This document shows positions 10,342 to 26,057 of a DNA stretch of 64,000 nucleotides, piece after piece (the stretch's first letter is position 1; every line of letters begins with the position of its first letter). A model generated the notes under the pieces. That model had not been told where the DNA came from. It did not search any database and saw only the letters and a list, made by a program, of their open reading frames with translations. The DNA comes from Pseudomonadota bacterium (GTDB taxonomy: Bacteria; Pseudomonadota; Gammaproteobacteria; Burkholderiales; Sulfuriferulaceae): positions 1 through 64,000 of the forward strand of contig JAJYYK010000009.1 of the NCBI GenBank assembly GCA_021801025.1, written 5' to 3'. The position numbers and the translations under genes were made by a program.

Positions 10342-11697
10342 TTACCACCACGAATTCGTCGAACAATATCCAAATGGGCTAGATATATACAAAAGTGGGG
10401 GCATCGAACCAATGTCACTCCAATATGCCTGTCCTTGCCAGCACGCTGTCGCTGCTGTACCTGCCACCCAACCTGTAGCACAACCCCTATTACCACTGAC
10501 AGAATAAGCTGTATAGGGTTGCAGTCCTGTCGTTACTGTTGCATTAGCCTGATGATAATTACCATTACCATCTCTAAATCCACACGAGGCGCTTTTCCCA
10601 GCGATTTCTGCCAACGGATTCGGGTAACGCCACACCCCATTCACACAAGACAAAACCATTCCGGCCGCATCTCGCGCTTGGCTCCCTTTTGAGCCGCACC
10701 ACGTACCGGCTGTGGCGACTCCGTTAAGCTGAAGGGTATTCGTGCTGAGTTGTCCAACCGCCAAGGTACCAGCAACGGTCAAATTCCCACCATCATCCAG
10801 CGATAACGGCTGCCAACTGGTGCCGTTACAGGTATATGCCCGTGGCCCCACACCCACGCTAGACATTTGCGCAATCCGTGTTTGCCATGCACTTGTTGTG
10901 TTACACACGGGTAAACTGGCAAAATTTGCTACAGGGTCCCTCCAATAAGCAGAGCCTTGCTGTTGCCATGCACCACTTTGACATGACAACACCACACCAT
11001 TACCATCCTGGGCTATCGCACCATTGGTTGCGCAAGCCTGTGTTGCGGTTTGTACAGAATTCATGATCAGCGGCGTGTTCATGGCATTCAGTTGCGGTTG
11101 ACCGGGTATGGCGTTCCGGTACAGGTAGGGGCTTTGCAATTGTCCGTTGTTAAAATACAGCAAAGCAGCCAGTTCACCGGGAGTGGCATTGATATAACTG
11201 GTCGTCGGCACTTGCCAGCTGCCTGCCGTGCCATACGCGGTGTTGGTCACATAAAGTCCAGTGTCATTTTTTGGAATAAAACCGCCAGTTGCACCCATAA
11301 GGTTGGCAATATTGGCGGCCTGTTTGTCCGGCAGTGCTGTGCCGCCGATGGTCATGATCAAGGCTTGCAGGTTGCCTGCGGTGGGCTGCAGCACTTCAAT
11401 TTGCCAGGTTTGCTGATATGGATTGGTTGATGTGAAGCTGGCAGGCAATAGACTTACCTCAGGCGTCTGCAACATACCTATCGTAATTATCGCTGGCGTT
11501 GTGGCTGTCGCCACAGCCTGAATTGCGACAGCATTGGTTTGAATGTAACTGGTGGCAGCAGTGCTGATCTGTGTCCACTGCGATGCAGTGGTGGCTGCCA
11601 AAAGATTATTGTTACTCTGCACTTGATAATCTGAGTAAGTTTTTACGCCGAACATTGCCACTAAAGCGGCAATCAGCACACCAACAATTTCACCCAT
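10342..11697 (-). CDS. pilV: PilV-type pilus tip adhesin with shufflon N-terminal domain
   Basis: Resembles the PilV minor pilin/adhesin of R64-type thin pili, which selects recipient cells. After a hydrophobic N-terminus (3-18), residues 20-215 match the constant shufflon-type region (TTASQWTQISTAATSYI; ATPGELAALLYF; YLYRNAIPGQPQLNAMNT). The C-terminal part has two copies of a short module with the pattern A-x-D-x-x-G-x-V-L-S-C-x-x-G-x-W (229-244 and 341-356), then a Cys-rich tail ending in WW. The N-terminus starts MGEIVG and has no basic leader peptide. There is no rci recombinase or sfx-like repeat nearby, so this adhesin appears fixed. Family call strong; ligand unknown. Confidence 0.87.
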   Translation of the reverse strand: MGEIVGVLIAALVAMFGVKTYSDYQVQSNNNLLAATTASQWTQISTAATSYIQTNAVAIQAVATATTPAIITIGMLQTPEVSLLPASFTSTNPYQQTWQIEVLQPTAGNLQALIMTIGGTALPDKQAANIANLMGATGGFIPKNDTGLYVTNTAYGTAGSWQVPTTSYINATPGELAALLYFNNGQLQSPYLYRNAIPGQPQLNAMNTPLIMNSVQTATQACATNGAIAQDGNGVVLSCQSGAWQQQGSAYWRDPVANFASLPVCNTTSAWQTRIAQMSSVGVGPRAYTCNGTSWQPLSLDDGGNLTVAGTLAVGQLSTNTLQLNGVATAGTWCGSKGSQARDAAGMVLSCVNGVWRYPNPLAEIAGKSASCGFRDGNGNYHQANATVTTGLQPYTAYSVSGNRGCATGWVAGTAATACWQGQAYWSDIGSMPPLLYISSPFGYCSTNSWW

Positions 11698-11711
11698 GAT
11701 TTTATTCTTTC

Positions 11712-12209
11712 TTAATTACTGACAACCACAAAAACCAACTGCCTGGCTGGCATGGCCGTCCAATTGGGCTGAGTAATGCCGCCATTGAGCACAGACTGAT
11801 TGCTGTTCCATACCCCATTCGCACTTGTGCTGCCCATGCCTGCATTGCCATGCTCGACATTTTGCATCGCTGCCGTCACGCCGGGCATGAGATTTTGCCC
11901 ATACACCATGATTGCATGCCCTACTCCCTGCACTTGTGCAATATTGTTTCCCGCGTTATTGACCAGGAACTCGGGTGACATACCAGGCGGTAAATATGGT
12001 TGTAATACATTTATGGGCACTGTTCCGACATATGCTGGATTGGCCGCTGCGAAATTCATCACGGCGTTGCGATAAGCGATGATATTTTGCGCCTGGATAA
12101 CCGCCATAGATTGTGAAACGGCTGGAATCAGGTTGTCTGCGTAACGAGCCATGATGGCATTGAGTCCCAAATATGCAACGAATAAAATCACTGGTAATGC
12201 GAAGCCCAT
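11712..12209 (-). CDS. pilM: PilM-like thin-pilus membrane protein
   Basis: Small protein with one N-terminal membrane segment (FALPVILFVAYLGL) and the PilM-family stretch IAYRNAVMNFAAANP followed by GTVP and LPPG. I chose the internal ATG at 12209 (MGFALPV, 165 residues) because AGGAG lies seven bases upstream; the longer frame from 12248 has no ribosome site. PilM of plasmid R64 is needed for thin-pilus formation, but its biochemical role is unclear. It lies between the pilS- and pilV-like genes, whereas in R64 pilM comes before pilN. Confidence 0.72.
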   Translation of the reverse strand: MGFALPVILFVAYLGLNAIMARYADNLIPAVSQSMAVIQAQNIIAYRNAVMNFAAANPAYVGTVPINVLQPYLPPGMSPEFLVNNAGNNIAQVQGVGHAIMVYGQNLMPGVTAAMQNVEHGNAGMGSTSANGVWNSNQSVLNGGITQPNWTAMPARQLVFVVVSN

Positions 12210-12277
12210 TTTATTACTCCTGGTGTGATTGACCCGCATAATGCACAAATGTATATAGCGTCCGGGCCAAACGCCTG

Positions 12278-12760
12278 TTAATGACCAAAAGCCAATACCA
12301 TGGTCGCTGGATTACTCGCAGCGCACGCAGTGGTCACTTGACCGGGGTCAGCAGGCAGCGTGATTGCAGTGCCGTTAATCATGACACTTGCGTAAGTCAT
12401 GCCCTGAGCGAGCTTTGCACAACCGTCTGGCGGCACATTGGTTTCTGTGGCTTGAAATTGACTTGCATTAGCGGGATTCACCATCATCGTGACACTGCCA
12501 TTCCAGGGGTTGACCAGCACACCCGTACCAGTAGTCATGTCTGTGGGTGCCAGTTTTCCATTGGTGACCACGGTATTATTCAATGAAGTGAACTGATTGC
12601 CACCATACAAGGTTTGAATTCCCTGCGATACTTGAGCCAAATCCGACATGGCGGTGCTGGTTTTATTACTCTGGAAAAAGGCATAACTTACTGCCATCAC
12701 TGCGATTAAGCCCAACAACATGCCCAGTTTTGAAAACAACAAACCCAAAATATTATCCAT
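12278..12760 (-). CDS. pilS: PilS-like type IVb major pilin
   Basis: Probable main pilus subunit. A hydrophobic helix (about residues 12-29) is followed by the PilS-type pattern LAQVSQGIQTLYGG, then VNPWNGSVTM, and a pair of cysteines near 114 and 145 that would close the C-terminal disulfide loop of type IVb pilins. The ATG has a good AAGGGAT ribosome site. The N-terminus MDNILGLLFSKLGMLLGLI has a glycine before the helix but no glutamate at +5, the residue normally needed for prepilin processing and assembly. It follows a 186 bp gap, the largest in the cluster, which suggests a pilin promoter of its own. Confidence 0.75.
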   Translation of the reverse strand: MDNILGLLFSKLGMLLGLIAVMAVSYAFFQSNKTSTAMSDLAQVSQGIQTLYGGNQFTSLNNTVVTNGKLAPTDMTTGTGVLVNPWNGSVTMMVNPANASQFQATETNVPPDGCAKLAQGMTYASVMINGTAITLPADPGQVTTACAASNPATMVLAFGH

Positions 12761-12946
12761 CGTTACTATCCCTTAACTTAATGAACTAACTTACTTTAAA
12801 CAAAAGATTATTTTGACAGTTGTGCATCACCACTTCACTCCAGTTCCAATAACATCAATCATTGCGCTGACTTCGTTTTCCTCCTCTATCCACGCCCTGC
12901 CTCCGTCATCCTGTCCTTGCCACTATGCTCTTGCTGGAAATCAAAA

Positions 12947-14041
12947 TTACCCACCGTGCAGAGCGCTAAGTTGAGAGGTCAATTCATTGATCGCCATCAT
13001 TAAAAATCCCATCCACACATACATCATCATTTCCATTGTCCTGCCAAATGATTTTGCAACAATTAAAATTGTGGATTCCAGTTCATGGGCCCATTGCATT
13101 GCAAGCGTGGTGACTTTTTCCGGAAAATCGGGGAAACCAGCCAAAGATTCAATGTCATCCACAATACCCGGATTAGGAAAACCGAAGGCAGGCATGCCAT
13201 ATGCGCCTCTTTCTAACAAGGCATCAGATAAATTGGCGCCATTTTCCATTCGAAACCAATAAGCCCGCAAGCGTTCGCGCAACCAGGGTGAACCCTGATT
13301 TTTTTGACGTGCCAATATCACAGTATCCGGTAAACCCGCACGCAAAAGTTGGGCGAAACCCATTAACCACAGGTAACCATGCATGTCGCGATAAAATGCA
13401 TAGGGAAACAGATTTTCAGCGGCAATACGATGTTTGCCTGTCCATTGTGGTAACGACCACACAAATGCCAGAATGACGAATGCCCCTGCAACCAGCGGTA
13501 TCAATACCCACCAACTGGTCACAAAATCGCCCATTGCATACAAGACATAGACCATGCCATGTACTTTTGATTTTGGCAGCGAGTTTTCCAATTCCGGTGT
13601 CACAAATTTGCCTATTGCCCACAGCATACCGAAAGTCAATGCTGCATAAATCGCCGGATTCACCAATGCCGCTTTGAAAGCCATATACACGCGCGTCATG
13701 CGTCGCCTGGATTCAATAATCAACTCCAGTGAGCGCGGCAATCCTCCTGACAACTCCCCCGCACTCACCACCCCATACTCATTCAGCGGTATCCATGGCT
13801 TGAGTGCTTCCGCCATCGTCGCGCCATCCTGCATCCGGTGTTCTACCTCAGCAATCATGGCACAAGCTTTTATTTGATGCGCACGACGCAGTCGTTTTCT
13901 GAAACTGACCAAAGCGATGTCAATCGGCACGCCATTGGTAATTTGCGTCGACAAATGCCGATACAGCTTTTCGCGTATCAACCAGGTTAAACCTTGGGCA
14001 GGCGAACGGAATTTCGCCACAATTGCAGATTTATTGATCAT
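12947..14041 (-). CDS. pilR: PilR/GspF-family inner-membrane platform protein
   Basis: Polytopic inner-membrane protein of the GspF/PilC superfamily, matching PilR of R64 thin pili. It contains two T2SSF-type cytoplasmic domains (about 15-130 and 220-330), each followed by hydrophobic segments (about 120-150, 175-200, 335-355). The stretch GVVSAGELSGGLPRSLELI resembles the conserved E-x-x-G-x-L motif of the family. It anchors the assembly ATPase. The start overlaps the pilQ end by 11 bp, showing tight coupling. Confidence 0.88.
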   Translation of the reverse strand: MINKSAIVAKFRSPAQGLTWLIREKLYRHLSTQITNGVPIDIALVSFRKRLRRAHQIKACAMIAEVEHRMQDGATMAEALKPWIPLNEYGVVSAGELSGGLPRSLELIIESRRRMTRVYMAFKAALVNPAIYAALTFGMLWAIGKFVTPELENSLPKSKVHGMVYVLYAMGDFVTSWWVLIPLVAGAFVILAFVWSLPQWTGKHRIAAENLFPYAFYRDMHGYLWLMGFAQLLRAGLPDTVILARQKNQGSPWLRERLRAYWFRMENGANLSDALLERGAYGMPAFGFPNPGIVDDIESLAGFPDFPEKVTTLAMQWAHELESTILIVAKSFGRTMEMMMYVWMGFLMMAINELTSQLSALHGG

Positions 14042-15581
14042 TGCGGACCTTAATCAAATCAACTTTATCCTCGATACTGCGCGGATCAACCACGCCATCC
14101 AATGCGTACTGAATGGCCGTTTCCAACATAGATGCATCTGAATCCGGTAATTTTCGGTGATTACGGCGGGCAATTTCCGAACCGTGCTCAATAAAATCCG
14201 TCATCAAGCTTGCACAGGCGACAACCACCTCTGCAACTGCAAATCGCCCTGCTGTGCCCCGTCCTCCGCACAATGCGCATCCGTGCGCAGATTGCACCCG
14301 AACTTTGTCCACATCGCCCCAGCTACGCAATGCTAAAACCATTCGTTCAGAAACATGGGAAGACTTGGCTTTCATTGGCACACTACAATGCGGGCACAAT
14401 TTGGGCAGCAATCGTTGCGCCACGACCCCACGTACAATTTTGTGATCGCAGAAAACACGCCGATTCAGCTTGATCGTGTCCATAAATTCCAGCCGCTCAA
14501 CAATGAGATAAGGATCATCCACATGCAGCGTTGTCCAGACTTGATGTCCGGTAACGGCCATTTCCAAAGCTGTTACCGCCACCTCGGCATCGCGTAATTC
14601 ACCCAGTTGTATGGTGTTAGGAGCCATGCGTAACATAACTCGTGCTGTGGCAGCGAATGCGGCGGCCGTTTCAATATTGGTTTTGGCATTGGTAATCGGA
14701 ATTTGCACTGCCCAATCCATCGGATATTCCACAGGATCTTCTGCTGTAACCAAACGGCGATAAGGTTTGGTGCGTGCCAACTCCTGCAAAGCCTCATGCA
14801 TGGCCGTGGTTTTCCCGGAACCGGTTGGCCCGGTGAACACCACCAAACCACTGGGGGCATCCATGAGCATCTTGAGTTTTTCAACCTGCCGGGGTGAATA
14901 GCCCATATGCCTCAATTGCAACTCTCCTTCTGGTCCTTTAGGGTAAGGCAGTGCGGGCATGTCCAGTTGACGATGATGACGGGCATATTGCAAACGTAGC
15001 GTCATGAACGAACCATTTTTGGCTTGTGGATAACATGGGCCGCGCACAATTCGCAACGAAGTAACGGCTACATCCACAGGCAAATCTTCGCCTGAAATTT
15101 GCGCATTCTGGAATTCGAGTGGATTAAAACTGGCGTCTTTTGTGGTTGCCAACCCTTGATAAATGGCCAGCGCCAATGATTCACCTTCTTTTTGCGATAA
15201 TTTACGCAAGGTGAACAAATGGCCGTCCACCACAACTTGAATTTCAGTGTGCGTACCCCGCATCATGAGATGTAAATCTGACGCGCCATATTGCGATGCG
15301 GTGCGTATTATGGCGATGGCCTCATTCTTCACCTCCAAAGTGATGTCAAGGTGTTTTTCCAGGCGCAAACCAGTGTTGCGCAACCTGGAAATCTCATCCA
15401 CTTCGGTGGGAATAAGTGTGAGTTGATGACCATTGCGCCGATTACGGTCCAACCATGTCAACAACACCGGATCCCCTGACAGACGTTTTTCAACATGAAT
15501 ATGCCCCGTTGAGGCATCAATTGCCACCACATGACTCAAGCTACTGGGGAAAATGGTAAGTGCTGGCAGCTCATTGTCCAT
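14031..15581 (-). CDS. pilQ: PilQ/GspE-family pilus assembly ATPase
   Basis: Cytoplasmic hexameric ATPase that powers pilus extension. Walker A GPTGSGKT is at 251-258, the Asp box is RLVTAEDPVEYP, Walker B is IQLGELRD and the His box is TGHQVWTTLH. A two-CxxC zinc site (CPHC then CALC) lies in the C-terminal part, as in many GspE proteins. The N-terminal 90 residues are unlike classical GspE. I chose the ATG at 15581, with AAGGGG seven bases upstream, over the longer 15599 start. It overlaps the pilO stop by 11 bp. No PilT-type retraction ATPase is in the window, as expected for R64-like pili. Confidence 0.92.
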   Translation of the reverse strand: MDNELPALTIFPSSLSHVVAIDASTGHIHVEKRLSGDPVLLTWLDRNRRNGHQLTLIPTEVDEISRLRNTGLRLEKHLDITLEVKNEAIAIIRTASQYGASDLHLMMRGTHTEIQVVVDGHLFTLRKLSQKEGESLALAIYQGLATTKDASFNPLEFQNAQISGEDLPVDVAVTSLRIVRGPCYPQAKNGSFMTLRLQYARHHRQLDMPALPYPKGPEGELQLRHMGYSPRQVEKLKMLMDAPSGLVVFTGPTGSGKTTAMHEALQELARTKPYRRLVTAEDPVEYPMDWAVQIPITNAKTNIETAAAFAATARVMLRMAPNTIQLGELRDAEVAVTALEMAVTGHQVWTTLHVDDPYLIVERLEFMDTIKLNRRVFCDHKIVRGVVAQRLLPKLCPHCSVPMKAKSSHVSERMVLALRSWGDVDKVRVQSAHGCALCGGRGTAGRFAVAEVVVACASLMTDFIEHGSEIARRNHRKLPDSDASMLETAIQYALDGVVDPRSIEDKVDLIKVRNDQ

Positions 15582-16752
15582 ACAGCACCCCTTCAACATG
15601 CCACCCTGTCGGCGTCGTACTGATTTTACTCAAGCGCAAGCCAGGCACATCAAGATCCAAATCAAATACAGGAATCAACGTATCAAAAGAGAATGGCAAG
15701 CTCGCCTGTGTCACAGCAGCTGCCGGAGCAGATACCTGCCCGGGCAACGCCAGCACAGCAGGGGAAGAAGTCGTCTGTAAATCAATACCTGTTTTTTGCA
15801 AACTCGCCATCAATCGGATTTTAGCCTGCGTCAAATCCAGTGTTTCGCTCCTGCCATCAGGTAACACCGGTAATCTTATTGCACCTGCCACCGTATCATT
15901 ATCGCTTAACACACCGTCTGGCCGTACTGCAACCGTCGCACTCCATTTCCGTTTCCAGACCAGATTCACTGCATTGGATATGCAAACCGCCCCGGACAAT
16001 GTCCAGCCACCCTTAACGGACAAGGGTGTGGCATCGATGATGGTTTTGCACGCCCATAGCCAACGCTCAGCATCTGGCGTAGCAAACAAAGGTGACGAAC
16101 GCGCCAAATTCTGTTGTGCGGCCATGCTGGATTTCAACAACGCAATTGCAGCTAGCCGTTCTTTCAACACGGTTTGGGCACGGTGTTGCCACCATCTATA
16201 TCCAACCACAGAAAACACCAGCAACATCGCCAACACAACCACTTGTCCGGTTGTAATCCTCGCTCCTTTCAGTGAGCGCACATACGTTCTTTTACCCTTC
16301 TGTGCCGCAATCCGTTCGCTTAAATTCAGGATATTACCTTCTATTTCATGCCAATCACCATAGCTGGCATGCTTCTCACGTGCAGCAAACAACATATCCT
16401 GACCGCCAACCTGGTCACCATCTGGCAAGATGGCAAGTCCATCACGGACTGCGATGTACCACCAAATATTTTCCTCAAGCTGAAACACTCCACGCCAGGG
16501 TTGCGGTTCCGTATCTGCCAGTAATGCCGCCAGACTGTATAGCCCCTTTGCATAGGTTGGCGATTCCGGTGGTGGGTTACCGAATCCACATTGAATGGCA
16601 AACTTGCCGATGCGGGTAGCATACCAAACGGCTTCCAACTGCACTGCATCCGCCTTGATATCTGACCGGGTGGGCACCTCTTCAAAGCTACGCCAGCTTA
16701 AACCCAATAACCACGGTGTATTGTTAATGTTGACGATACGGGTGAGGGACAT
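15571..16752 (-). CDS. pilO: PilO-like pilin accessory protein
   Basis: Matches the R64-type PilO accessory family (not the PilO of type IVa pili). A cytoplasmic N-terminal half of about 175 residues contains YSLAALLAD, WRGVFQLEENIWWYIAVRDG and ILPDGDQ. A single membrane segment follows (about 180-197), and the periplasmic C-terminal part ends with a small domain (LRLSKISTTPTGWHVEGVLYG). It should link the ATPase/PilR platform to PilP and the secretin. It starts right after the pilP stop, with no gap. Confidence 0.85.
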   Translation of the reverse strand: MSLTRIVNINNTPWLLGLSWRSFEEVPTRSDIKADAVQLEAVWYATRIGKFAIQCGFGNPPPESPTYAKGLYSLAALLADTEPQPWRGVFQLEENIWWYIAVRDGLAILPDGDQVGGQDMLFAAREKHASYGDWHEIEGNILNLSERIAAQKGKRTYVRSLKGARITTGQVVVLAMLLVFSVVGYRWWQHRAQTVLKERLAAIALLKSSMAAQQNLARSSPLFATPDAERWLWACKTIIDATPLSVKGGWTLSGAVCISNAVNLVWKRKWSATVAVRPDGVLSDNDTVAGAIRLPVLPDGRSETLDLTQAKIRLMASLQKTGIDLQTTSSPAVLALPGQVSAPAAAVTQASLPFSFDTLIPVFDLDLDVPGLRLSKISTTPTGWHVEGVLYGQ

Positions 16753-17337
16753 TTAATCCGCCCCCAATCCTGATGATGCATGGCTTCCATTGAGATTACT
16801 CTCAAGCAGTGGTGGTAAAGGCACATGGCTCGTACCACTGCCATTCATATCTCCCATACCACCAAGCCCCACAGGTGCCGAATAGGGGTCAGCCACAAAA
16901 GGCAGACTCATAACGGCTTGTCTGGTTTGAATCAGCACTTCGTCCAAAGACACTGATTTCACTATACCCAAACCTGGAATAATTTGTCCCACCCTGACTT
17001 TAATTTGTGCGCCATCCAGCAAAATCGTCGCAATGGGATGTTGTGGGTCGCCGGAAATCAACACTACTCTGGCTTCTGGCAATGTCTCTGCTCCACTCAA
17101 ACGCTTACCGTGGGGCACGGGAAATAAGGGAAGCGCAGAGTTATTCTGGCTGTTATTCCTGATTTTTTCTTTCAACTCGATGTTTTTGAGCTGAACAGTC
17201 AGTAAAGCATTCTCTGCGTTCAATGCGTCAAGTTGCGCTTGGGTAGCCACCTCACCGCTCCCGGCATCGGCATGTGCCACAGTTAACGGCACTACCCATA
17301 AACCGATGAGAAAAAACAACAGGTTCATTTTCATCAC
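16753..17337 (-). CDS. pilP: PilP-like thin-pilus biogenesis protein
   Basis: Exported protein with an N-terminal signal or anchor (LLFFLIGLWVVPLTVAHA), a short helical region (QLDALNAENALLTVQLKNIEL) and a GspC/PilP-like beta domain at about 85-160 (RVVLISGDPQHPIATILLDGAQIKVRVGQ is spread over 87-115). These features fit the R64 PilP family, which couples the inner-membrane platform to the secretin. It overlaps pilN by 4 bp. The C-terminal 45 residues are Gly/Pro-rich. Confidence 0.8.
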   Translation of the reverse strand: MMKMNLLFFLIGLWVVPLTVAHADAGSGEVATQAQLDALNAENALLTVQLKNIELKEKIRNNSQNNSALPLFPVPHGKRLSGAETLPEARVVLISGDPQHPIATILLDGAQIKVRVGQIIPGLGIVKSVSLDEVLIQTRQAVMSLPFVADPYSAPVGLGGMGDMNGSGTSHVPLPPLLESNLNGSHASSGLGAD

Positions 17338-19043
17338 AATACCTTTGCTGAAACAACAATTGCAATCATGGCGTTGCCGATTTGGTTATTGACCCCACCC
17401 CCTAATATGGCGTTGGCAGGCGAGCCCACGCCCTCATGATTCGTGCTACCGTTATCTTGCTGCACACCGCTTAATAACAGCGCATCGCCGGGGGTTAATG
17501 ACACCGATTGCTGGAAGGTGCTGAGGTCCACATTAGTGGTCTGTATCCCGTTAGCGGTGCTACCAACCGTGGTAATTCCCAACAAGGTGCTGTTGGTCAT
17601 CGTCATACCAAGAACTATTTTCCCATTCAGTACACGGGGAATGAATGTGGCTGTAAAACCTGTGGTCACTGTGCCTGGGGTATAAGTAGTAATGGCACCA
17701 CCAACCGTTTGAGTAAGCGTCGAAGAACTGGCCAGATAACCCTGTTGATTCGCAATTTGTATTGGAGCAGGCTCGCCATTGAGTGTCACCATGGTTTGTT
17801 GCAAAGTTTCAGTCACCTTGCCCAATGTAGATAAAGCTTGAAATGCTGCTTGAGACCCGGTGTACTGCCCCCATGCACCTTGACCTGCTGTGGGTGTCAG
17901 TACACTGGCGGCAATACCTAAAGGGGTATTCCCACTGATGGGTACCAACGTTGTGGGCGAACTGACGTTATAGCCTATTGTGCCAGCTGCTTTTTTGAAC
18001 ACGATGCCAGGGTCCCAGTTGTAAGTGTCTTCCTGGGCGATTTTTACCCGATAAACCTGCACGGTAATCGCCACTTGCTGACTTAGCTGTTGCGTCAATT
18101 CCTTTATCCAGTTTTCAACGGCGCGAACCTGTGCTGGTGTGCCAGTTACGGTCACACTGCCTGCAGAGGCATTCGCCGCCACCTGCGCCCCACTACCTAC
18201 CGCTTTGGCCGTTTTTTCCAAATCACCCCACATATCTACCCCATAATCACTGGTAATCGTGGCACCTGAACTGGCTGAGGTATTGGTTCCACCTGATGAT
18301 GTCGCGCCAGTGCCACTGTTTGCAGTAGCGGTAGTGATGGTACTGTCGCCCAAGGATTTTCTGGAAATGGCGGGCAGGTAAAAGGTTTTCGTTTCCGTCC
18401 GATAAAACACCACCTTACCTTCATCAAATCGCCACCATACCGCTGCTTTACTGGCCGCAATGTCCAACAAACCCGATACCGTACCTTCATAACTGACGGC
18501 CATCGATTGCAAGCTCTGTGGCAGCGGCATGCCTGCGCCAGGCATCCCAACACCAGCCAACAGACCAGTTTGAGCAGGAAATACAGAACCAGAAACGGGC
18601 GGTTGCTGTACATTGAGCGAACCGGCCATGCCTTGCACACCCGAAACGCCGCTCATTGGCATGGTTTGCATCACTTCAGCGGTATCCACCACCAAGCCTT
18701 TTGATAAGGTGATGTATGCTGCAATATCCGCCAGCGACACGCGCTGCGCCGGATGGTAAAGAATCGGACTGGAAAGCAAAGGGGATGCTGGTTTTGTAAC
18801 GGCAATCGCATCGCCCATCAGCCAAGCACTGTCCACTATAGTGACCACTGGTTTGACTTCCGGTAAATGCTGAGTCGCAATGTTTCGTATGGCTTGATCT
18901 TGCAGGCTAGCGGCTTGTTTCCCTACCGATTGCTCCGCGCAACCTGCGAGTACTGAACACAGCATCGCGCCCATCCATAGCGACCAAATACACCCTGTAC
19001 ATTGACCTCGCATATCGGCCTTATTTTTCTGCCTGCCCATCAT
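17334..19043 (-). CDS. pilN: PilN-type outer-membrane secretin lipoprotein
   Basis: Outer-membrane pore of the pilus. A lipoprotein signal ends at LAGC (Cys35). Next come N-domains, a Gly/Ala/Pro-rich stretch (115-150), a second N-domain with a Ser/Thr/Gly-rich linker (about 240-270) and a ring-forming N1-like domain (GTPAQVRAVENWIKELTQQL). The C-terminal secretin domain (about 400-569) has VTLNGEPAPI, FIPRVLNGKIVL and TPGDALLLSGVQQ. Length and lipobox match the R64 PilN family of lipoprotein secretins. It overlaps the upstream TcpQ-like gene by 4 bp. Confidence 0.93.
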   Translation of the reverse strand: MMGRQKNKADMRGQCTGCIWSLWMGAMLCSVLAGCAEQSVGKQAASLQDQAIRNIATQHLPEVKPVVTIVDSAWLMGDAIAVTKPASPLLSSPILYHPAQRVSLADIAAYITLSKGLVVDTAEVMQTMPMSGVSGVQGMAGSLNVQQPPVSGSVFPAQTGLLAGVGMPGAGMPLPQSLQSMAVSYEGTVSGLLDIAASKAAVWWRFDEGKVVFYRTETKTFYLPAISRKSLGDSTITTATANSGTGATSSGGTNTSASSGATITSDYGVDMWGDLEKTAKAVGSGAQVAANASAGSVTVTGTPAQVRAVENWIKELTQQLSQQVAITVQVYRVKIAQEDTYNWDPGIVFKKAAGTIGYNVSSPTTLVPISGNTPLGIAASVLTPTAGQGAWGQYTGSQAAFQALSTLGKVTETLQQTMVTLNGEPAPIQIANQQGYLASSSTLTQTVGGAITTYTPGTVTTGFTATFIPRVLNGKIVLGMTMTNSTLLGITTVGSTANGIQTTNVDLSTFQQSVSLTPGDALLLSGVQQDNGSTNHEGVGSPANAILGGGVNNQIGNAMIAIVVSAKVL

Positions 19044-19528
19044 TCTGGCGCTCCTGTTACCACCATAGTTTGATTTGCCAGATACAATTGCGCATGCACC
19101 AATGCACCATTACCCGCAAGTGTTTTGATGACCTGCTCAGCCGCATTCTGAAACTCGCCATAAAACAATGAATTAGAGGGGATCACCCAATCTCTTGATA
19201 CATTCCAGACGACATTCCAACCTGCTTTTGCCGCCCACATACGCAAGTCTTTTTTAATCGTATCACCAGCAGTAAGCACCCACTCTCCTTGAGACACCGA
19301 TTCTTTAAATCTAAAAACCATTCTGTTGCTATCAACATCGATGACAGGAGTTTTCTCATTGTGTCCGGTATTGGTGACCGGCAGCAAGGGTGCCATACTT
19401 GGCATTGGCTGAACTGCAACCCTTGTAACGGGATCAAAAATTCCCGGTGCGTTGTCATCCGACATGACATGAGTCGATAAGGCCAGTATGGTTATAAAGA
19501 AAAATAATTTCAGAATCATTGGTTTCAT
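19040..19528 (-). CDS. TcpQ/PilL-like periplasmic protein
   Basis: Small exported protein with a signal peptide (1-22) and, from about residue 75, the TcpQ-type fold (WVLTAGDTIKKDLRMWAAKA, GWNVVWNV, FYGEFQNAAEQVIKTLAG). This domain is found in TcpQ and at the C-terminus of PilL, where it helps the secretin reach or stay in the outer membrane. It sits directly before the secretin gene, in the pilL position of R64. A second protein with similar C-terminal features is encoded three genes upstream. Confidence 0.8.
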   Translation of the reverse strand: MKPMILKLFFFITILALSTHVMSDDNAPGIFDPVTRVAVQPMPSMAPLLPVTNTGHNEKTPVIDVDSNRMVFRFKESVSQGEWVLTAGDTIKKDLRMWAAKAGWNVVWNVSRDWVIPSNSLFYGEFQNAAEQVIKTLAGNGALVHAQLYLANQTMVVTGAPE

Positions 19529-19537
19529 TGACTATGC

Positions 19538-20218
19538 TCAATCTTTAAAAATCAACATACCTAAACTGTTGTGTGCCGCCACATACACACAACCTACCCC
19601 TTTGCTAAAATCATGAGGTAAGCGACCGGCTGGTACAGCGCTGTAATCCACTCCATTGCACGCACTGAGTACCGGATACAGCGCCCCACCAAAATGATAA
19701 ACCTCCAGAGCATAATTCCTGGATGCCGTACCCGGCAAATTCCGGCGAATCAGAATCCTGGTACCGGGAAACCCCGCTCGCAGCAGCAACACCCCCGGAT
19801 CACCGTCAGTAGGCATTGGTGACAAATAAGCATGATTACCATACTGTGCAGTCGTGTCTGCGCCGCAGAAGTTATTCGCCGCACTGGCCATCCCTTTACT
19901 GAACAAAACGGACAACTTATTGGGCACGCAAGCCGTATTGTGCCGGTAGACAGACACGGCATTGGCGATTTCTTCCAATTCGGTTATGGCAGCTTCCACT
20001 CTGGCATCTTCTCTGCTGCGAATAACTACTTTTACAAACATGCTGGCAAAAATGATTATCGCCAGGCAGGTACTTACTTCCACCCAACTGAGGTTCGTTT
20101 GATACCACCACTTCCATGGCATTCTGACCAAACCGGACCACCGCGTCTTTAAGCTGACAAAACCTGCTTGACTGATTGTACGCACCCAGAAAAACCAATT
20201 TTTGCAATCACTGACCAT
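19538..20218 (-). CDS. Prepilin-like minor pilin with unusual leader
   Basis: Contains a prepilin-like helix NLSWVEVSTCLAIIIFASMF with glutamate at the +5 position if cleavage follows Asn42; the usual glycine at -1 is absent. A charged helix (SREDARVEAAITELEEIANA) and a cysteine-containing globular domain follow, the layout of GspG/PilE-type pseudopilins. The start at 20218 has an AGGA site and overlaps the upstream gene by 11 bp. An internal ATG at 20122 (MPWKWW) would give a short, typical leader but has a poor ribosome site. It does not look like the PilS protein of this locus and may be a minor or initiating pilin. Confidence 0.6.
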   Translation of the reverse strand: MVSDCKNWFFWVRTISQAGFVSLKTRWSGLVRMPWKWWYQTNLSWVEVSTCLAIIIFASMFVKVVIRSREDARVEAAITELEEIANAVSVYRHNTACVPNKLSVLFSKGMASAANNFCGADTTAQYGNHAYLSPMPTDGDPGVLLLRAGFPGTRILIRRNLPGTASRNYALEVYHFGGALYPVLSACNGVDYSAVPAGRLPHDFSKGVGCVYVAAHNSLGMLIFKD

Positions 20219-20801
20219 GGGGATCTGTCCTCATTTTTTCCGCCAATAAAAATGCGTTGGCAACATCTTCAATACTGTCCCCAGTAAACAGTGCATCTTG
20301 CTGGGCCAATAAATCATTACCCGCCCAATGCACAACACAGTGATACCGTTGCGCAAATGCCATCAAGCTTTCTTTCAGGCTATCGCCCCTGTGAAGCTGA
20401 ATGAATATTTTTTTGGGGTGAAGTGCCCGCACCTCAGGCACAGGCATGAACAGGTCTGGGCCGACCTTTGTTGACAACGACTGTGCCACACGCATTACAC
20501 CGTTACGGCAGCTGTACTGCAAACCCGTTCCTTCAGCCAGACGCACCACTGCCTCATCCACTGTGCCGGTCACATTGTTTGCGGTAATGTTTACCCCACC
20601 CGGCTCACCAGACTGCACCAGCGAAATACCTGTTCCTGCAAGTATTTTTCTCAACGCAGCAACGGGCTGTTCTTTTTCAAAACTAACCGGGCCAAAGGGT
20701 ACTTGCAAATTACATTCGCCAGATTCACCGGCTTTCACCACAAACGATAACCCCATTGCAATCAGGCCTATCCCCATTAGCCCGAATTTTGATCGCTTCA
20801 T
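20208..20801 (-). CDS. STN-domain plus TcpQ-like periplasmic protein
   Basis: Exported protein with a signal peptide (about 1-23). Residues 40-105 resemble a secretin/TonB short N-terminal (STN) fold (VAALRKILAGTGISLVQSG, DEAVVRLAEGTGLQYSC). The C-terminal part (about 135-190; HRGDSLKESLMAFAQRY, CVVHWAGND, FTGDSIEDVANAFLLA) resembles the TcpQ/PilL C-terminal domain. It is probably an accessory piece of the outer-membrane pore of this locus. The start shares one base with the stop of the upstream VirB9-like gene (TAATG). Confidence 0.68.
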   Translation of the reverse strand: MKRSKFGLMGIGLIAMGLSFVVKAGESGECNLQVPFGPVSFEKEQPVAALRKILAGTGISLVQSGEPGGVNITANNVTGTVDEAVVRLAEGTGLQYSCRNGVMRVAQSLSTKVGPDLFMPVPEVRALHPKKIFIQLHRGDSLKESLMAFAQRYHCVVHWAGNDLLAQQDALFTGDSIEDVANAFLLAEKMRTDPHGQ

Positions 20802-21481
20802 TATTGATTTTCCTTACCCATTACGGGCTGACCTGCCATGATTGCCGCAACGGCGGCACCACTATGATTTTGACGGACATGATGTTGCGGTATACGTTTG
20901 TGTATCACCGTGCCGAGTGTTATGGCTGGGACCGGCGCAGTCAAAACACAGGGGGCTGTGACAGCTGGCGTGCTGCCCGTATTCTGCATAAAGATCAATT
21001 CACCGCTGAAATGGCTGATTTGCTTTATCGCACTGACATTCATCCTTTGGAAGGTGTCTTTTGGAATACTGGCTGACGTATTTTGTATCCCTGTTTGTGC
21101 TACGCCATGACTTTGCCCACCATCCACTAAAGCCCGCCCGCCCGTATAGGTCACCATAGCCTGTTTGCCACCAAATTTGAGCACGACTTCAGGTGACAGA
21201 TTATTCAGGACAAAATATGGGAACTCAGGATGCACATCCATGCGCACCATTCCATTTGCCTCATGAATAAAGACGGCAGGAATGTCAACTTGACTTTTAA
21301 ATTGCAAATACAAATATTGTCCATCGTCAAACACCTGTATAGGTGCCACCGCTGCATCACCGCTGACTGCATAATGAAAGTCGTATCCAGGCAATTCAGA
21401 TGCTCCCACCTGCATACTCATGACTATGAGGCTTGCTACACAGAGGCAAATCCAGATTTTTGGTTTTAACTCTCGTTTCAT
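20801..21481 (-). CDS. Second VirB9/TrbG-like protein
   Basis: Exported protein of 226 residues. After a signal peptide (1-27), residues 33-125 match the C-terminal beta-sandwich of VirB9/TrbG proteins: YHF-like FHYAVSGDAAVAPIQVFDDG, then YLYLQF, IPAVFIHEANG and VLKFGG. It lacks the N-terminal VirB9 domain. The remaining 100 residues end without a known motif. I chose the ATG at 21481 because GGAGG lies directly upstream, inside the virB10 tail; the longer frame is an artefact. It could decorate or replace part of the VirB9 ring; this is inference. Confidence 0.7.
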   Translation of the reverse strand: MKRELKPKIWICLCVASLIVMSMQVGASELPGYDFHYAVSGDAAVAPIQVFDDGQYLYLQFKSQVDIPAVFIHEANGMVRMDVHPEFPYFVLNNLSPEVVLKFGGKQAMVTYTGGRALVDGGQSHGVAQTGIQNTSASIPKDTFQRMNVSAIKQISHFSGELIFMQNTGSTPAVTAPCVLTAPVPAITLGTVIHKRIPQHHVRQNHSGAAVAAIMAGQPVMGKENQ

Positions 21482-21482
21482 C

Positions 21483-22997
21483 TTACCTCCCTCCTGCAGT
21501 AGATAAAGCAGCCAGGACAATGTCTTGCAGCACGATGAGCGACAACTTCGTGCCTGCAGCCACATTGAGCTCCGGTTTCATATTTTGATAATGTGCCAGA
21601 ATCCCGCCGGCAGTATCTGACGTGACTTGCCCCGCCGCACTGCTCAGAGAGTAATTACCCCCTGCAGTATTTACAATTACACCATTCGGCGAATTGGGCG
21701 GCTGCAAAGCCCAGCCCAAAGTGGCCAACAAGATTCCAGTACCAAATTGTTGCCACAGATGATTGTTCAGATCTCCGGCTACCCCAGCACGCCCTTGCGC
21801 ATCTCCACCATTCCAGGCATCGATCTTAAGTGAAGCACCTGACGGCAAAATAATCCGTTTAAATCCGAACATCATGCGATTCTGTCCAAACAGTGTCGAC
21901 GAGTTATAATTGCCTTCTAACTTTGATCCTGCAGGAATAATCAACACATCGCCGGTGATAGAGTCATACACATTGCTGGTCACCCGCGCGGACACATGAC
22001 CTGGCAACGCATTATTCAAGGCGGTCAACAACACCAGCGGTATCACCGCACCTTCTTGTAACAAATGATTTTGGGGCGGATTACCTATAGCGATCGGCTT
22101 ATCAGGTGCAGATTTTGCCGTCTTTTCCTGTTTTTCTTGCCACACCTCATTGGGGTCGCGTTGTATTTGAGGCGTTTGACGACTCAACATCGTTTGAATC
22201 AGTTGATTTCCCATTGCATCCGTACTCTTCGCCGCTTCAGGCACAAGTTGGCTTGTTGTATTAACAGCCAACCCGTTGACCAAGGCATGGGCAGGGTCAT
22301 TTATTCGTGCATCACCAGTGCTCTCATCTGCCGAATCAGAATGATCTGTTGCAGGCATCGCATTGCCTGGCACAGTCTGATTTGATGCAGCAATACCAGA
22401 TACCCGGTCGGCATGCTGTTGCAAATTCTTCATTTCGGGTAAAGTCAATGTCCCGCCAGAGCCCTTCCCTGAAACTGTGTTGCCACTTAAGCTTGTCTGC
22501 CCTGAATGTTGCTGACTCTCATCTGACTTCTCAGGACTGACAACGGCACCACCCTCATCGAAACTGCTGGGTAAAACGCTTTGCGGCGTCATGCTATCGC
22601 GAACGCTGTCAAAAGCCCGTCCTAAAGCCTCTTTGGCTGATTGATAGCGACTTAATTGCTCAGGCGTAATTTCTCCCGTTTCAAAAGGCAACTTGTCTTG
22701 CGGATAAACCGGAGTGAATTTGCGTGCCTGCTCTTGTTGCCGAGCAATGTCCTGCTTGATGTGCTGATCTGCCTCAGCGATTTCAGCCTTGGCCATCGAT
22801 ACTGATTCGGGTGTATCATTACCTACCTGCGCAGCGACTGTTTCGGCCGTTTTTTGTGCGCTCACCCCACCTGGTTTACCGCCTTTTGTGCCATATTGCA
22901 GGATAAATACACCAATCAACCCCCCTATCATCATGACCGACAACACGATGACAATGTGTTTACTGAGTTTTCTTGATGCCATCACTTTATTTCCCAT
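21483..22997 (-). CDS. virB10: VirB10/TrbI-family channel protein
   Basis: Inner-to-outer membrane spanning channel subunit of type IV secretion systems. A short cytoplasmic tail and one membrane helix (IVIVLSVMMIGGLIGVFIL) lead to a long low-complexity periplasmic linker (about 40-290, rich in Gln, Ser, Asp, Pro). The VirB10 C-terminal domain follows (about 310-470): VIPLVLLTALNNALPGHVSA, DVLIIPAGSKLEGNY and FGFKRIILPSGASL. The start ATG at 22997 overlaps the virB9 stop (TGATG). No lipobox is present. VirB10 proteins form a gated pore with VirB9. Confidence 0.92.
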   Translation of the reverse strand: MGNKVMASRKLSKHIVIVLSVMMIGGLIGVFILQYGTKGGKPGGVSAQKTAETVAAQVGNDTPESVSMAKAEIAEADQHIKQDIARQQEQARKFTPVYPQDKLPFETGEITPEQLSRYQSAKEALGRAFDSVRDSMTPQSVLPSSFDEGGAVVSPEKSDESQQHSGQTSLSGNTVSGKGSGGTLTLPEMKNLQQHADRVSGIAASNQTVPGNAMPATDHSDSADESTGDARINDPAHALVNGLAVNTTSQLVPEAAKSTDAMGNQLIQTMLSRQTPQIQRDPNEVWQEKQEKTAKSAPDKPIAIGNPPQNHLLQEGAVIPLVLLTALNNALPGHVSARVTSNVYDSITGDVLIIPAGSKLEGNYNSSTLFGQNRMMFGFKRIILPSGASLKIDAWNGGDAQGRAGVAGDLNNHLWQQFGTGILLATLGWALQPPNSPNGVIVNTAGGNYSLSSAAGQVTSDTAGGILAHYQNMKPELNVAAGTKLSLIVLQDIVLAALSTAGGR

Positions 22998-23854
22998 CAA
23001 CGCAACCATCCAAACCAGGATTTCGATTGAGCGGGCTTCACTGTCACGCGCACTTCCTCATCACCCAATTTGAGTAACCATGCGTTAGCAGTTCGTTGCG
23101 CCTTCATCAAACCATTTTGATCCACGGTATAATTTACCAACTCAGATTCTTTCTTATCATTCAGCACAAACAGTGCTGGCAATTCTTGTACAGATGGCGG
23201 CAATCGAAACCAGGTGAATTTTCCATCATCGGCCACCAGCGTCGGGGTAAATGCCTCATCACCCTGAATAGCATAATCCACAAACATATTCTGCAGGTCA
23301 GGGCCAGACCCTCCGGGTACATTTGGGTTGTCTGGAGCAGTATTTTGCTGATCAACTGTCTCAGGTTGGGCTTCATATTGCGCGGGTAAGCCTGCGCTGT
23401 CGTCATCACCCCCTATCCAACTGACCCGCTGAAACCAAATTCCCGTATTAGCCGCTTCAAACGTCAATAAATAAGAACGCTTGTCTGTGAGCAAAGTGGC
23501 GGTATTTACTGTGCCAGCTTGCATGGGCATGATAAACACATGCCGCTTATCAGCCGAAATGGTATAAGGCCAACCACGTTTTTCATCGGCTGAAGGATAC
23601 CAGGCAATAATTTTTTCGTGATCAGGTACTGCAATTTCACTTAACACTTTCACCCGTGCCTTGATTGGATAAGTACGATTGGAATCATACTCATATGCCA
23701 CTACACGGGTGTCGTTGAATAGTGTAGGCGTCACCCCCTGATCCACCAGCAATGGCGTATCAAACACCTGATCAGCTGCAGGCAAAATTCCTGCCCATCC
23801 CAGTATGCCAACACTTAGGAGCCGAGAAACAATTACACAACTACCGCGCATCAT
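22997..23854 (-). CDS. virB9: VirB9/TrbG-family outer-membrane complex protein
   Basis: Periplasmic VirB9 homologue with both domains. After the signal peptide (about 1-26), the N-terminal domain holds RVVAYEYDSNRTYPIKARV and WPYTISADKRHVFIMP. A Pro/Asn-rich linker lies at 172-192. The C-terminal domain has YAIQGDEAFTPTLVADDGKF, PALFVLNDKKESELVNY and NAWLLKLGDEEVRVTV. It overlaps virB8 by 4 bp and virB10 by 1 bp. It would form the outer-membrane ring of the core complex with VirB10. No VirB7-like lipoprotein gene was found beside it. Confidence 0.92.
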   Translation of the reverse strand: MMRGSCVIVSRLLSVGILGWAGILPAADQVFDTPLLVDQGVTPTLFNDTRVVAYEYDSNRTYPIKARVKVLSEIAVPDHEKIIAWYPSADEKRGWPYTISADKRHVFIMPMQAGTVNTATLLTDKRSYLLTFEAANTGIWFQRVSWIGGDDDSAGLPAQYEAQPETVDQQNTAPDNPNVPGGSGPDLQNMFVDYAIQGDEAFTPTLVADDGKFTWFRLPPSVQELPALFVLNDKKESELVNYTVDQNGLMKAQRTANAWLLKLGDEEVRVTVKPAQSKSWFGWLR

Positions 23855-24501
23855 TGCCCCAACTCATCATCAATCACAAACTGGGTAACATAAAAACCGA
23901 TGGGATTAAGCAGTGCTTCTGCGTCGCTTTTTACCGGCTCCAGTGCGTAATGCATGCTGACCACTTTCGTCTCGGTTTGTACCGCATTGTTTCCGCTAAG
24001 GGTAATGAGTTTGACGACCGCTTCCACCACATTTTCCGCACTGGGTAAAATAGTGATGCGCTGAATCTCAATATTTCTTTCCAATGAAGGGTCTTTGACC
24101 ATGCGTTCCAGTGTCGTATCCACAGTCAAAAATTCATTGACTTGCGATTTGGCTTTGCCTAACACCACTGTTTTTACCGCAGGCAGATATTCTGATTTGG
24201 TGCGGTATGGATCTATTATTAATAATTCTCTAACAAACTTAGCTGCGAAATACTTTATATTTTGTTCTGTGGGCGTAAATTTTTGCGCCACAGTCGAAGA
24301 CACTTGCACCAAACCCGTGTCTTTGTTGCTGGAAACAAAATAAGGAATTCGCTCTTTTAACGGCATTAATACTGCAAAACAGAAGGACAACACAACATTT
24401 GCCAACACTGATGCGGACAACAGCATCGCCATCCGATTCGCCTCCAACCGGGGAGAAAGGTTACGTTTCAACTGATTTGAAATGGGATTATCCACCGTCA
24501 T
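23851..24501 (-). CDS. virB8: VirB8-family inner-membrane assembly factor
   Basis: Bitopic inner-membrane protein of 216 residues. A short cytoplasmic tail and one membrane helix (about 25-47, LLSASVLANVVLSFCFAVLM) precede a periplasmic NTF2-like domain that ends with the VirB8 signature LLNPIGFYVTQFVIDDEL (family pattern N-P-x-G-x-x-V). VirB8 nucleates the type IV secretion core and contacts VirB9 and VirB10. It is the first gene of the long operon, 166 bp after the sensor kinase gene on the same strand. Confidence 0.88.
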   Translation of the reverse strand: MTVDNPISNQLKRNLSPRLEANRMAMLLSASVLANVVLSFCFAVLMPLKERIPYFVSSNKDTGLVQVSSTVAQKFTPTEQNIKYFAAKFVRELLIIDPYRTKSEYLPAVKTVVLGKAKSQVNEFLTVDTTLERMVKDPSLERNIEIQRITILPSAENVVEAVVKLITLSGNNAVQTETKVVSMHYALEPVKSDAEALLNPIGFYVTQFVIDDELGQ

Positions 24502-24517
24502 ATTCCATATACGCGCT

Positions 24518-24611
24518 ACTAATTGTACTCATAATAAAACAAATATCAATTAGTAACAAGTGAATTTTTAACGGCACAACAAAACAATGAATTGATTTAA
24601 CCAATCAATTC
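24518..24611. promoter_or_regulatory. Two inverted repeats upstream of the virB8-pil operon
   Basis: Two perfect palindromic pairs lie in the 166 bp between the sensor kinase and virB8. ACTAATTG (24518-24525) is complementary to CAATTAGT (24547-24554), with centres about 29 bp apart. GAATTGATT (24589-24597) is complementary to AATCAATTC (24603-24611) with a five-base loop. The region is AT-rich and is the natural place for the operon promoter. The second palindrome could also be a weak terminator for the kinase gene. Regulator binding is inferred only. Confidence 0.45.
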
Positions 24612-24667: not shown

Positions 24668-26056
24668 TCAGGTACAAACAGAAAAACTCACTCGCATCAG
24701 CGTCCCCGCCCCATGCACGGGGGTTAAAATTTGCAAGCTAGCCTGGTGCTGGCGCACGATTTCCGCCACGATAGACAGCCCCAGCCCGCAGCCATTGCCA
24801 GGACTGCCTGCGACACGATAGAAACGTTCCAGCACTTTCTCTCGTTGCGCCTCCGGAATGCCCATGCCATTGTCTTCCACTTCCAGCATAGCCACGCCAC
24901 CCGCCGCATAGGTACGCACAGTAATCACGCCGCCATCTGGCGTATAACGCAGGGCGTTGTCGATTAAATTCGCAAATAATTCCGGCAACAGCAGAGCATC
25001 CCCTGCACAAACCGCTGGCAACAACTCAAAACCCAAATCGATATGTTTACTGCGCGCACGCGCCAGCCAGGCAACCATTCCCGCCTCGACCATCACGGAC
25101 AAATCGACTGCTTGCCGATTCACCAGATGTTCGGTCGTCGGTTCTGCACGCGCCAGCGTAAGGAGTTGGTTCGCCAGGTGGGTGGCGCGCCGTGTGGCAT
25201 CCAGCAAAGTATTCAACACCTGCGCTGTGTGCTCGGGCATCTGCTCGCGCAACAACAATTCAACCTGGGTGTGTAGGCCCGCCAAAGGGGTACGCAATTG
25301 ATGCGCCGCATTGGCCAAGAATCGCTGCTGGCCTTCCATCACCGCCGCCAACTCACCGAGCAGCGCATTCAGCGACACCACCACCGGTCGAACTTCCAGC
25401 GGCGCGTGGTCTACCGGCACAGGCCGCAAATCCAGATGGGAACGGCTGGCGATTTCCTGCTGCAATGCGTGCAAAGGCTTTAAACCCTTGGTGACGCCGA
25501 CAGACACCAGCAATCCGGCTGCTATGGCAATCACCAGCGCGGGTGCCACCATCAAGGCCATCAATTCATACAGATTTCGATCACGACGAATCAGGGTTTG
25601 CGCAATCTGTACGATGACGAAATGAGGCACCTCTTCAACCGCCGGATCGCTGTCCAAATCCACGCGCATCGCTACCACACGCACGGCTTGATTGTCATAG
25701 GTTGCATCATAAAACTGCGGTTTATTGCTGATCTTCGGCGGAACGGGCAGGGTCAAGTCACCTGCAAATTGATGTCCGTGTTCATCGGAAATCTGGAAAT
25801 AGGCCGTGTCATAGACATGGGTAAACAAAGGACGCAAGGTGTCTTGCGACAACATCAACACGGGATGTCCGCGCTCAAAAACGATGTGCTGACTCAATGC
25901 CTGAACAGGATCCAGCAAGGACCGGTCAAACGCACGCGTCACCGCCACATGCGCGCCGAAATAGGACGCCCAACTGGCCAAAATCAACAAAGCCAACAAG
26001 GGTGGGAGTAGCCAGCGCAACAGCAAGCCATGCAAACTGTCCGCCCCGCCCCTCAT
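24668..26056 (-). CDS. TctE/QseC-like sensor histidine kinase
   Basis: Membrane sensor kinase with two membrane helices (about 11-38 and 165-188) flanking a periplasmic domain of about 125 residues of the TctE-type N-terminal sensor family. The H-box NAAHQLRTPLAG carries His252. The N-box is LFANLIDNALRYTP; G-boxes are VEDNGMGIP and GNGCGLGLSI. Homologues with this layout sense tricarboxylates or other small molecules. It lies one base after its response regulator and upstream of the virB8-pil operon on the same strand, so control of the pilus genes is possible but unproven. Confidence 0.88.
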   Translation of the reverse strand: MRGGADSLHGLLLRWLLPPLLALLILASWASYFGAHVAVTRAFDRSLLDPVQALSQHIVFERGHPVLMLSQDTLRPLFTHVYDTAYFQISDEHGHQFAGDLTLPVPPKISNKPQFYDATYDNQAVRVVAMRVDLDSDPAVEEVPHFVIVQIAQTLIRRDRNLYELMALMVAPALVIAIAAGLLVSVGVTKGLKPLHALQQEIASRSHLDLRPVPVDHAPLEVRPVVVSLNALLGELAAVMEGQQRFLANAAHQLRTPLAGLHTQVELLLREQMPEHTAQVLNTLLDATRRATHLANQLLTLARAEPTTEHLVNRQAVDLSVMVEAGMVAWLARARSKHIDLGFELLPAVCAGDALLLPELFANLIDNALRYTPDGGVITVRTYAAGGVAMLEVEDNGMGIPEAQREKVLERFYRVAGSPGNGCGLGLSIVAEIVRQHQASLQILTPVHGAGTLMRVSFSVCT

Positions 26057-26057
26057 G

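Follow-up and report, generated by a model that had tools for sequence, protein, structure and literature searches.

A chromosomal VirB system split over two loci and paired with an exchanged type IVb pilus in a Sulfuriferulaceae bacterium: a probable reading

The gene cluster considered here, locus A, occupies positions 10342-24501 of a 64,000-nucleotide stretch of DNA (the window) from a Pseudomonadota bacterium of the family Sulfuriferulaceae (GenBank assembly GCA_021801025.1, contig JAJYYK010000009.1). In it, genes of a VirB-type (type IVA) secretion system run directly into those of a type IVb pilus. Together with a second locus elsewhere in the genome, locus B, it probably forms a chromosomal VirB system that is split in two, has no MOBP relaxase, belongs to a family without the coupling protein VirD4, and is paired with a type IVb pilus acquired by exchange. 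The most likely interpretation is a domesticated, VirD4-less secretion or adhesion machine with an exchangeable pilus, a function that we infer from gene content and comparison.

Two loci, one VirB system

The genome that holds the window (G000, with the window on contig G000:C6) measures 2.38 Mb and is 99.96% complete. At locus A, 15 open reading frames (ORFs) lie on the minus strand in the order virB8-9-10, cagX2, a gene with STN (secretin N0-like) and TcpQ matches, the degenerate pilin gene orf226, and tcpQ-pilN-P-O-Q-R-S-M-V (Table 1). The E-values, from VirB8 to Shufflon_N, are so low that these family matches are not chance, and they bear out the original prediction, made from the letters of the sequence, that type IVb pilus genes follow a VirB8/9/10 core in a single chromosomal run. 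Its coordinates, strand and main gene calls stand as well, although it counted 14 ORFs; the spacing it described as mostly overlapping or under 20 bp fits 12 of the 14 junctions, which overlap or measure at most 14 bp, but not pilR-pilS (186 bp) or pilS-pilM-like (29 bp). The flanks it named, topA on one side and rnpB on the other, are confirmed. With apaG and tRNAs as further flanks and no PF03432 relaxase, a location on a plasmid or an integrative and conjugative element (ICE) is rejected: locus A is chromosomal and lies outside any recognisable ICE or plasmid.

Locus B is found on another contig (G000:C2:193925-201055, read within stretch L132, G000:C2:186001-206000), where one strand encodes a lytic transglycosylase (VirB1), VirB11, a VirB2 candidate, VirB3, VirB4, a VirB5/TrbJ candidate and VirB6. 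VirB4 is matched by PF03135 (32.3 bits) and PF19044 (32.0 bits), both over the cut-off, and VirB11 by TIGR02788 at 250.0 bits against a cut-off of 249.95; the SLT (VirB1), VirB3 and TrbL (VirB6) matches are over their Pfam cut-offs. VirB4 had been called absent, which is true of the window but ruled out, by the PF03135 match, as a statement about the genome.

The two loci occur together. Among 18 genomes of the genus, both are present in nine and neither in the other nine, with no case of one alone, when locus A is called by VirB8 at >350 bits and locus B by VirB4 at >=61% identity; two of the nine non-carriers hold only unrelated conjugation systems of ~30% identity. The chance of such perfect co-occurrence would be ~2e-5 if the genomes were independent, and as they are related the figure is descriptive. 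VirB4 and VirB8 trees have an identical topology within the genus (support for the placement of G007 is moderate), and the distances in the two proteins are closely correlated (Mantel r=0.96-0.97 within the genus, 0.91-0.96 overall). The deeper trees give no resolution between families, which confines any inference on the age of the split to the genus. Between G000 and its sister species G004, the ratio of nonsynonymous to synonymous substitution rates (dN/dS) is <0.51 in all 19 genes measured, including virB4 (0.078), pilQ (0.042) and pilS (0.036); with values so low throughout, both loci appear to be under purifying selection. Downstream of locus B, genes for a GNAT protein, an acyltransferase, ApaH and a UvrD-type helicase are kept in G006, G007 and G010, and this synteny across species favours vertical chromosomal inheritance.

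These results bear on the idea that VirB8/9/10 is the entire VirB complement and serves the pilus as a common envelope scaffold. Such a scaffold would explain why just virB8-9-10 adjoin the pilus genes, and the domain fusions described below would suit it too; yet virB1, 11, 3, 4 and 6 and the virB2 and virB5 candidates at locus B co-occur perfectly with locus A and coevolve with it, which makes the idea very improbable and overturns the stand-alone VirB core that had been proposed. As a separate observation, a GNAT protein resembling the acyl-homoserine-lactone (AHL) synthase type is encoded directly past virB6 in three siblings (Table 1).

Exchange of the pilus genes

Locus A is chimeric. 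The virB1-11 genes, cagX2, the STN gene and orf226 match siblings at 32-84% identity. Siblings offer no match for the genes tcpQ to pilV, except for pilQ as a distant ATPase paralogue, and these genes match plasmids only, at 25-60% identity. The closest named relatives are the pil operons of Acidovorax pACP4.3 and the Cupriavidus metallidurans Ni-2 plasmid, with identities (pACP4.3/Ni-2) of 60/50% for tcpQ, 47/40% for pilN, 57/57% for pilQ, 46/48% for pilR, 43/46% for pilS and 45/51% for pilV, but just 26/25% for VirB4. The join between orf226 and tcpQ, at ~19530, is sharp in these matches, and the guanine-cytosine profile shows no step there.

Siblings G005, G006, G007 and G010 carry another pilus set behind virB8-9-10-cagX2(-STN), made up of a secretin, PilM/N-like and PilO-like proteins, a long PilB-type ATPase, PilC and canonical pilins, with a PilT-like ATPase in addition in G010 and G005. 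Within the genus, two unrelated pilus types stand at the same site behind the virB core. The other set also follows virB8-9-10 in five genomes of other families (G025, G073, G064, G232 and G103), and largely does so in genomes of family f13. An upstream flank of apaG, tonB, response regulator, histidine kinase and virB8 is common to G000 and G007, yet G007 has the other pilus half; the flank is shared with G009 too, the kinase adjoins virB8 in G002 and G004, and G005, G006 and G010 differ. In the tree the G000/G004 pair nests inside carriers of the other pilus type, so replacement of the pilus in the ancestor of this pair is the simplest reading. On the evidence of the alignment, in which Gly(-1) of the prepilin cleavage site has become Asn in both G000 and G004, orf226 is what remains of the old pilin; neither genome has a further copy of the old-type secretin. 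Synonymous divergence (dS) between the two is 0.54-1.3 for pilP-pilS (window 12278-17337 vs L034) and 0.20-0.35 for virB8-pilN, i.e. 2-4 times higher in the former, a hint of later allele exchange in the 3' half.

In the Methylophilus-like family f42, VirB8-9-10 occurs with neither an adjoining pilus nor a close old-type secretin elsewhere, so the VirB core can probably work without such a pilus. Independent distribution of the two halves, which would speak against the hybrid as first conceived, is thus partly seen: the pilus half has been exchanged, and some families have VirB without an adjoining pilus. The f42 loci (L122, L123, L146) are themselves chromosomal and split into VirB8-9-10 and VirB11-3-4-5-6, mostly with no VirD4.

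A possible bridge between the VirB core and the secretin

By sequence and predicted fold, cagX2 is a VirB9 C-terminal domain (VirB9-C). The core of its AlphaFold2 (AF2) model, residues 61-140, matches R388 TrwF/VirB9-CTD with a Z of 13.6 and a root-mean-square deviation of 2.3 over 90 residues (VIA-align), where unrelated rows reach Z 6.7 and below. Its start is probably at M29 (~21481), where homologues begin. VirB9-C and TcpQ domains are fused in one protein in G025, G065 and G005, most clearly in G065 (CagX 4.7e-14, TcpQ 4.3e-32); in G025 and G005 TcpQ falls under the cut-off. In the toxin-coregulated pilus (TCP), TcpQ proteins function in assembly of the secretin, so the fusions argue for contact of the VirB outer-membrane core with the pilus secretin and suggest a VirB-secretin bridge. 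The shared envelope core of the original prediction gains domain evidence in this way, but VirB8/9/10 is not the whole VirB set.

The STN and TcpQ matches of the 197-aa window protein are both under the gathering cut-offs, as they are in the STN protein of sibling G006. The VirB9-C protein of G006 (L029 10700-11608) ends not in TcpQ but in LysM, a peptidoglycan-binding domain. The second VirB9-family protein of plasmid pHG1 has a weak CagX match and no TcpQ match, and a fusion there is not established; R721 PilL was considered as the same fused protein and rejected, only the TcpQ domain being detected. Sequence searches of the Protein Data Bank with the STN protein and PilS gave nothing useful.

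Leaderless pilins

The pilus is of the type IVb class: a lipoprotein secretin, PilO, PilP, assembly ATPase, platform, PilS-domain pilin and TcpQ are all matched. It is not the complete R64-type operon that had been claimed. No PilU prepilin peptidase is present in the operon, the sole PF01478 gene of the genome lying on another contig; no R64 PilT-type lytic transglycosylase was seen there; and PilS and PilV are leaderless. A shufflon at pilV is rejected, as no inverting repeats were found and no recombinase-sized ORF adjoins the gene. The next gene, 68 bp past pilV on the same strand (9077-10273), encodes an acyltransferase-3 whose target may be a glycan of the surface or the pilus itself; it follows pilV in G004 too.

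A type III leader with Gly or Ala at its end defines prepilins, in which Glu5 is usual (PMC10191384). In sequence and alignment, both leader and Glu5 are missing from window PilS and PilV. PilS begins MDNILGLLF; its ATG is preceded by a stop in frame at a distance of 5 codons and by a Shine-Dalgarno-like AAGGGA. PilV begins MGEIVGVLIA and has TAA in frame 7 codons upstream. Leader and Glu5 are likewise missing from PilS of pACP4.3, Ni-2, Burkholderia contaminans, Paraburkholderia, Acidiphilium and pHG1 and from plasmid PilV where examined, and most, not all, of these plasmid pilins have an in-frame stop at most 15 codons upstream. The leader is kept in PilS of R721 (...KG^ATLMEV) and of Nitratidesulfovibrio (...RG^ATVLEA; 39% identical). 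The stretches examined around the leaderless pilins contain no annotated A24 peptidase gene; R721 has one. Single-sequence AF2 modelling of PilS (predicted local distance difference test score, pLDDT, 55) is credible only for the N-terminal helix. These pilins apparently form an undescribed class.

Comparison with known systems

Literature searches for this VirB/type IVb pilus hybrid led nowhere. The pairing itself is known from plasmids. R721, pHG1 and a B. contaminans plasmid combine VirB (IVA) with an R64-like thin pilus in a gene order near-identical to that of the window, so R64 pili are not confined to Dot/Icm systems, nor VirB systems to other pili, contrary to the original premise. Like the window, pHG1 (Cupriavidus necator H16, NC_005241) carries virB8-9-10, an extra VirB9-family gene (product 422 aa), TcpQ and PilN-P-O-Q-R-S-V on one strand, with a leaderless PilS. 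It differs in that virB11-2-3-4-5-6 adjoin the virB8-10/pil region, with no split, and in being a conjugative megaplasmid with TraD and relaxases; identity to the window is 30% for VirB4 and 33% for PilN. R721 (Escherichia coli, IncI2, typed MPF_T) also has adjoining virB and pil genes on one strand, as virB8-9-10-11-virD4-pilN-O-P-Q-R-S-T-U-V, but possesses VirD4, a relaxase, PilU, PilT and leader-bearing pilins, at 18-43% identity. The pilus of TP114, another IncI2 plasmid, is needed for mating and transfer in the gut (PMC7508951). The B. contaminans LMG 23361 plasmid has the order virB11-3-4-6-8-9-10-x-pilN...pilV. In pACP4.3 and Ni-2, PilS and PilV are leaderless as in the window, whereas a different trb/VirB set (VirB4 25-26%) lies back-to-back with the pil operon, which includes a second, PilT-like, ATPase gene that the window operon lacks.

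VirB sets without VirD4 are known in Ptl, Brucella VirB, Bartonella Trw and Helicobacter ComB, where they serve two-step export, effector delivery, adhesive pili and DNA uptake, respectively (PMC12857230). PAPI-1 and R64 are chimeras of a type IV secretion system and a type IVb pilus (PMC12857230). Both transfer DNA, and they are unlike the window in that R64 has a Dot/Icm-like core and PAPI-1 clear homologues of VirB4 and VirD4 only. To our knowledge, none of the four VirD4-less systems has a type IVb pilus operon joined to its core. Parts and pairing being already known, what is new is the split, chromosomal, VirD4-less and partner-swapped arrangement, together with the leaderless pilins.

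Possible function

The full VirB set with VirB11 and a transglycosylase, next to a separate pilus with a tip adhesin, is best fitted by contact plus export or display. In such a machine locus A would supply virB8-9-10, cagX2 and STN/TcpQ, and locus B virB1-11-2-3-4-5-6. The ancestral pilus genes of G000/G004 would have been swapped for a pACP4.3/pHG1-like thin-pilus operon, leaving behind the VirB core and one degenerate old pilin. The new pilus may use PilV to attach, and stay attached, to a surface or cell; VirB4/VirB11 would power the VirB complex in the envelope, which VirB9-C, N0 and TcpQ proteins would link to the pilus secretin. The machine could then show a short pilus of its own or export protein without a coupling protein, in the manner of Ptl or Bartonella Trw. 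More tentatively, VirD4-free VirB and type IVb pilus may be a single apparatus, with a VirB9-C/N0/TcpQ bridge, an exchangeable pilus cartridge and leaderless pilins independent of the peptidase.

Several points weigh against the domesticated secretion or adhesion machine. The 91-aa VirB2 candidate has no Pfam match and the VirB5 candidate only a TrbJ-like match of 1.4e-6, under the cut-off; both have the right size and place and are conserved in siblings, and they are candidates by position. A search for short lipoproteins found no convincing VirB7 ORF. The VirB9-C/TcpQ fusion occurs in relatives and not in window cagX2, and a single transcript for locus A is suggested by gene spacing. The single VirD4-like gene of the genome, on an integrase-bearing island, is a further such point; the lack of a PF03432 (MOBP) match in the genome, other relaxase families not having been tested, counts in favour of the machine.

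The coupling protein deserves particular attention. VirD4 is encoded at neither locus, and PF02534 is missing from the genomes of six of the nine carriers (G002, G004, G006, G007, G009 and G010) and from G025; a PF02534 gene of 601-608 aa is present among carriers only in G000, G005 and G015. The VirD4/TraD-like gene of G000 (L025 13222-15042, G000:C15:53222-55042) lies on an island that also encodes a tyrosine integrase but has no VirB10, VirB4 or PF03432 relaxase; G005 and G015 have the 601-aa version. A domesticated remnant of an IncI2/pHG1-like conjugative element, stripped of relaxase and coupling protein and possibly mobilising others in trans, would be in keeping with this island gene, with the VirD4-like genes that adjoin related clusters in other families, and with related clusters on plasmids with MOBP relaxases. 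The lack of VirD4 in most carriers, the joint retention of both loci under purifying selection and the synteny of locus B across species speak against it, and we regard it as unlikely, though second to contact with export or display.

Third in rank, and rather improbable, is a DNA-uptake machine in which a VirD4-less VirB system pulls in DNA with the help of the pilus, like Helicobacter ComB. ComB likewise lacks VirD4 (PMC12857230). Type IV pili generally are known to mediate uptake elsewhere; here, however, a separate prepilin peptidase/PilB/PilC locus, probably of a type IVa pilus, may serve instead, and the VirB5 candidate, VirB11 and the PilV adhesin suggest contact and export. The dprA gene in the window reflects the usual dprA-topA neighbourhood.

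The upstream two-component genes, which adjoin virB8 in G007 and G009 as well, are a possible regulator of locus A. The overall yield of the promoter and terminator scan was near chance.

Table 1. Features of locus A and its upstream region, with further loci in other stretches (named before the coordinates); aa, amino acids.
Feature	Coordinates	Strand	Description
virB8	23851..24501	-	216 aa; PF04335 2.8e-25; 53-93% identity in congeners
virB9	22997..23854	-	285 aa; PF03524 (VirB9/CagX) 1.9e-39; TIGR02781 6.3e-22, under cut-off
virB10/TrbI	21483..23009	-	508 aa; PF03743 5.8e-44; sole copy in genome
cagX2, second VirB9 C-terminal-domain protein	20801..21565	-	PF03524 profile positions 115-194, 5.4e-14
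STN (secretin N0-like) and weak TcpQ protein	20208..20801	-	197 aa; STN 1.8e-5, TcpQ 0.021
orf226, degenerate old-type pilin	19538..20218	-	41-53% to sibling pilins; no plasmid match
tcpQ/pilL-C	19040..19528	-	PF10671 2.7e-19; opens acquired pilus half
pilN, lipoprotein secretin	17334..19043	-	569 aa; Secretin 6.7e-7; lipobox LAGC; 47% to pACP4.3
pilP	16753..17337	-	194 aa; TIGR03021 2.6e-13, above cut-off
pilO	15571..16752	-	393 aa; PF06864 9.2e-32
pilQ, assembly ATPase	14031..15599	-	522 aa; PF00437 (T2SSE) 7.1e-50; 57% to plasmids
pilR, inner-membrane platform	12947..14041	-	364 aa; PF00482 (T2SSF) 1.8e-16
pilS, leaderless major pilin	12278..12760	-	160 aa; PF08805 1.1e-15
pilM-like	11712..12248	-	178 aa; PF07419 1.2e-5; alignment
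pilV, tip adhesin, leaderless	10342..11697	-	PF04917 (Shufflon_N) 1.8e-28
Sigma-70-like promoter, just upstream of virB8	24522..24549	-	TTGATA-16-TACAAT, 10/12; best on minus strand
Two-component sensor and regulator, upstream	24668..26741	-	PF08521, HisKA, Response_reg, Trans_reg_C
Further leaderless PilS	L148 26320-26805
Further leaderless PilS	L149 26424-26906
Further leaderless PilS	L178 20595-21077
Further leaderless PilS	L180 20982-21497
Further leaderless PilS	L181 20422-20922
AHL-synthase-like GNAT	L172 12649-13416
AHL-synthase-like GNAT	L135 14254-15090
AHL-synthase-like GNAT	L134 13557-14312

Significance

This case shows that a VirB core can be inherited as two distinct chromosomal parts even as the type IV pilus paired with it is exchanged. 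The leaderless PilS and PilV, common to several plasmid pili of Burkholderiales and Acidiphilium, run counter to the rule by which type 4 pilins arise as leader-bearing prepilins. The VirB9-C/TcpQ fusions name a likely bridge between the VirB core and the secretin, and how thin pili work together with IVA secretion systems, a question of long standing, becomes testable by genetics and comparison.

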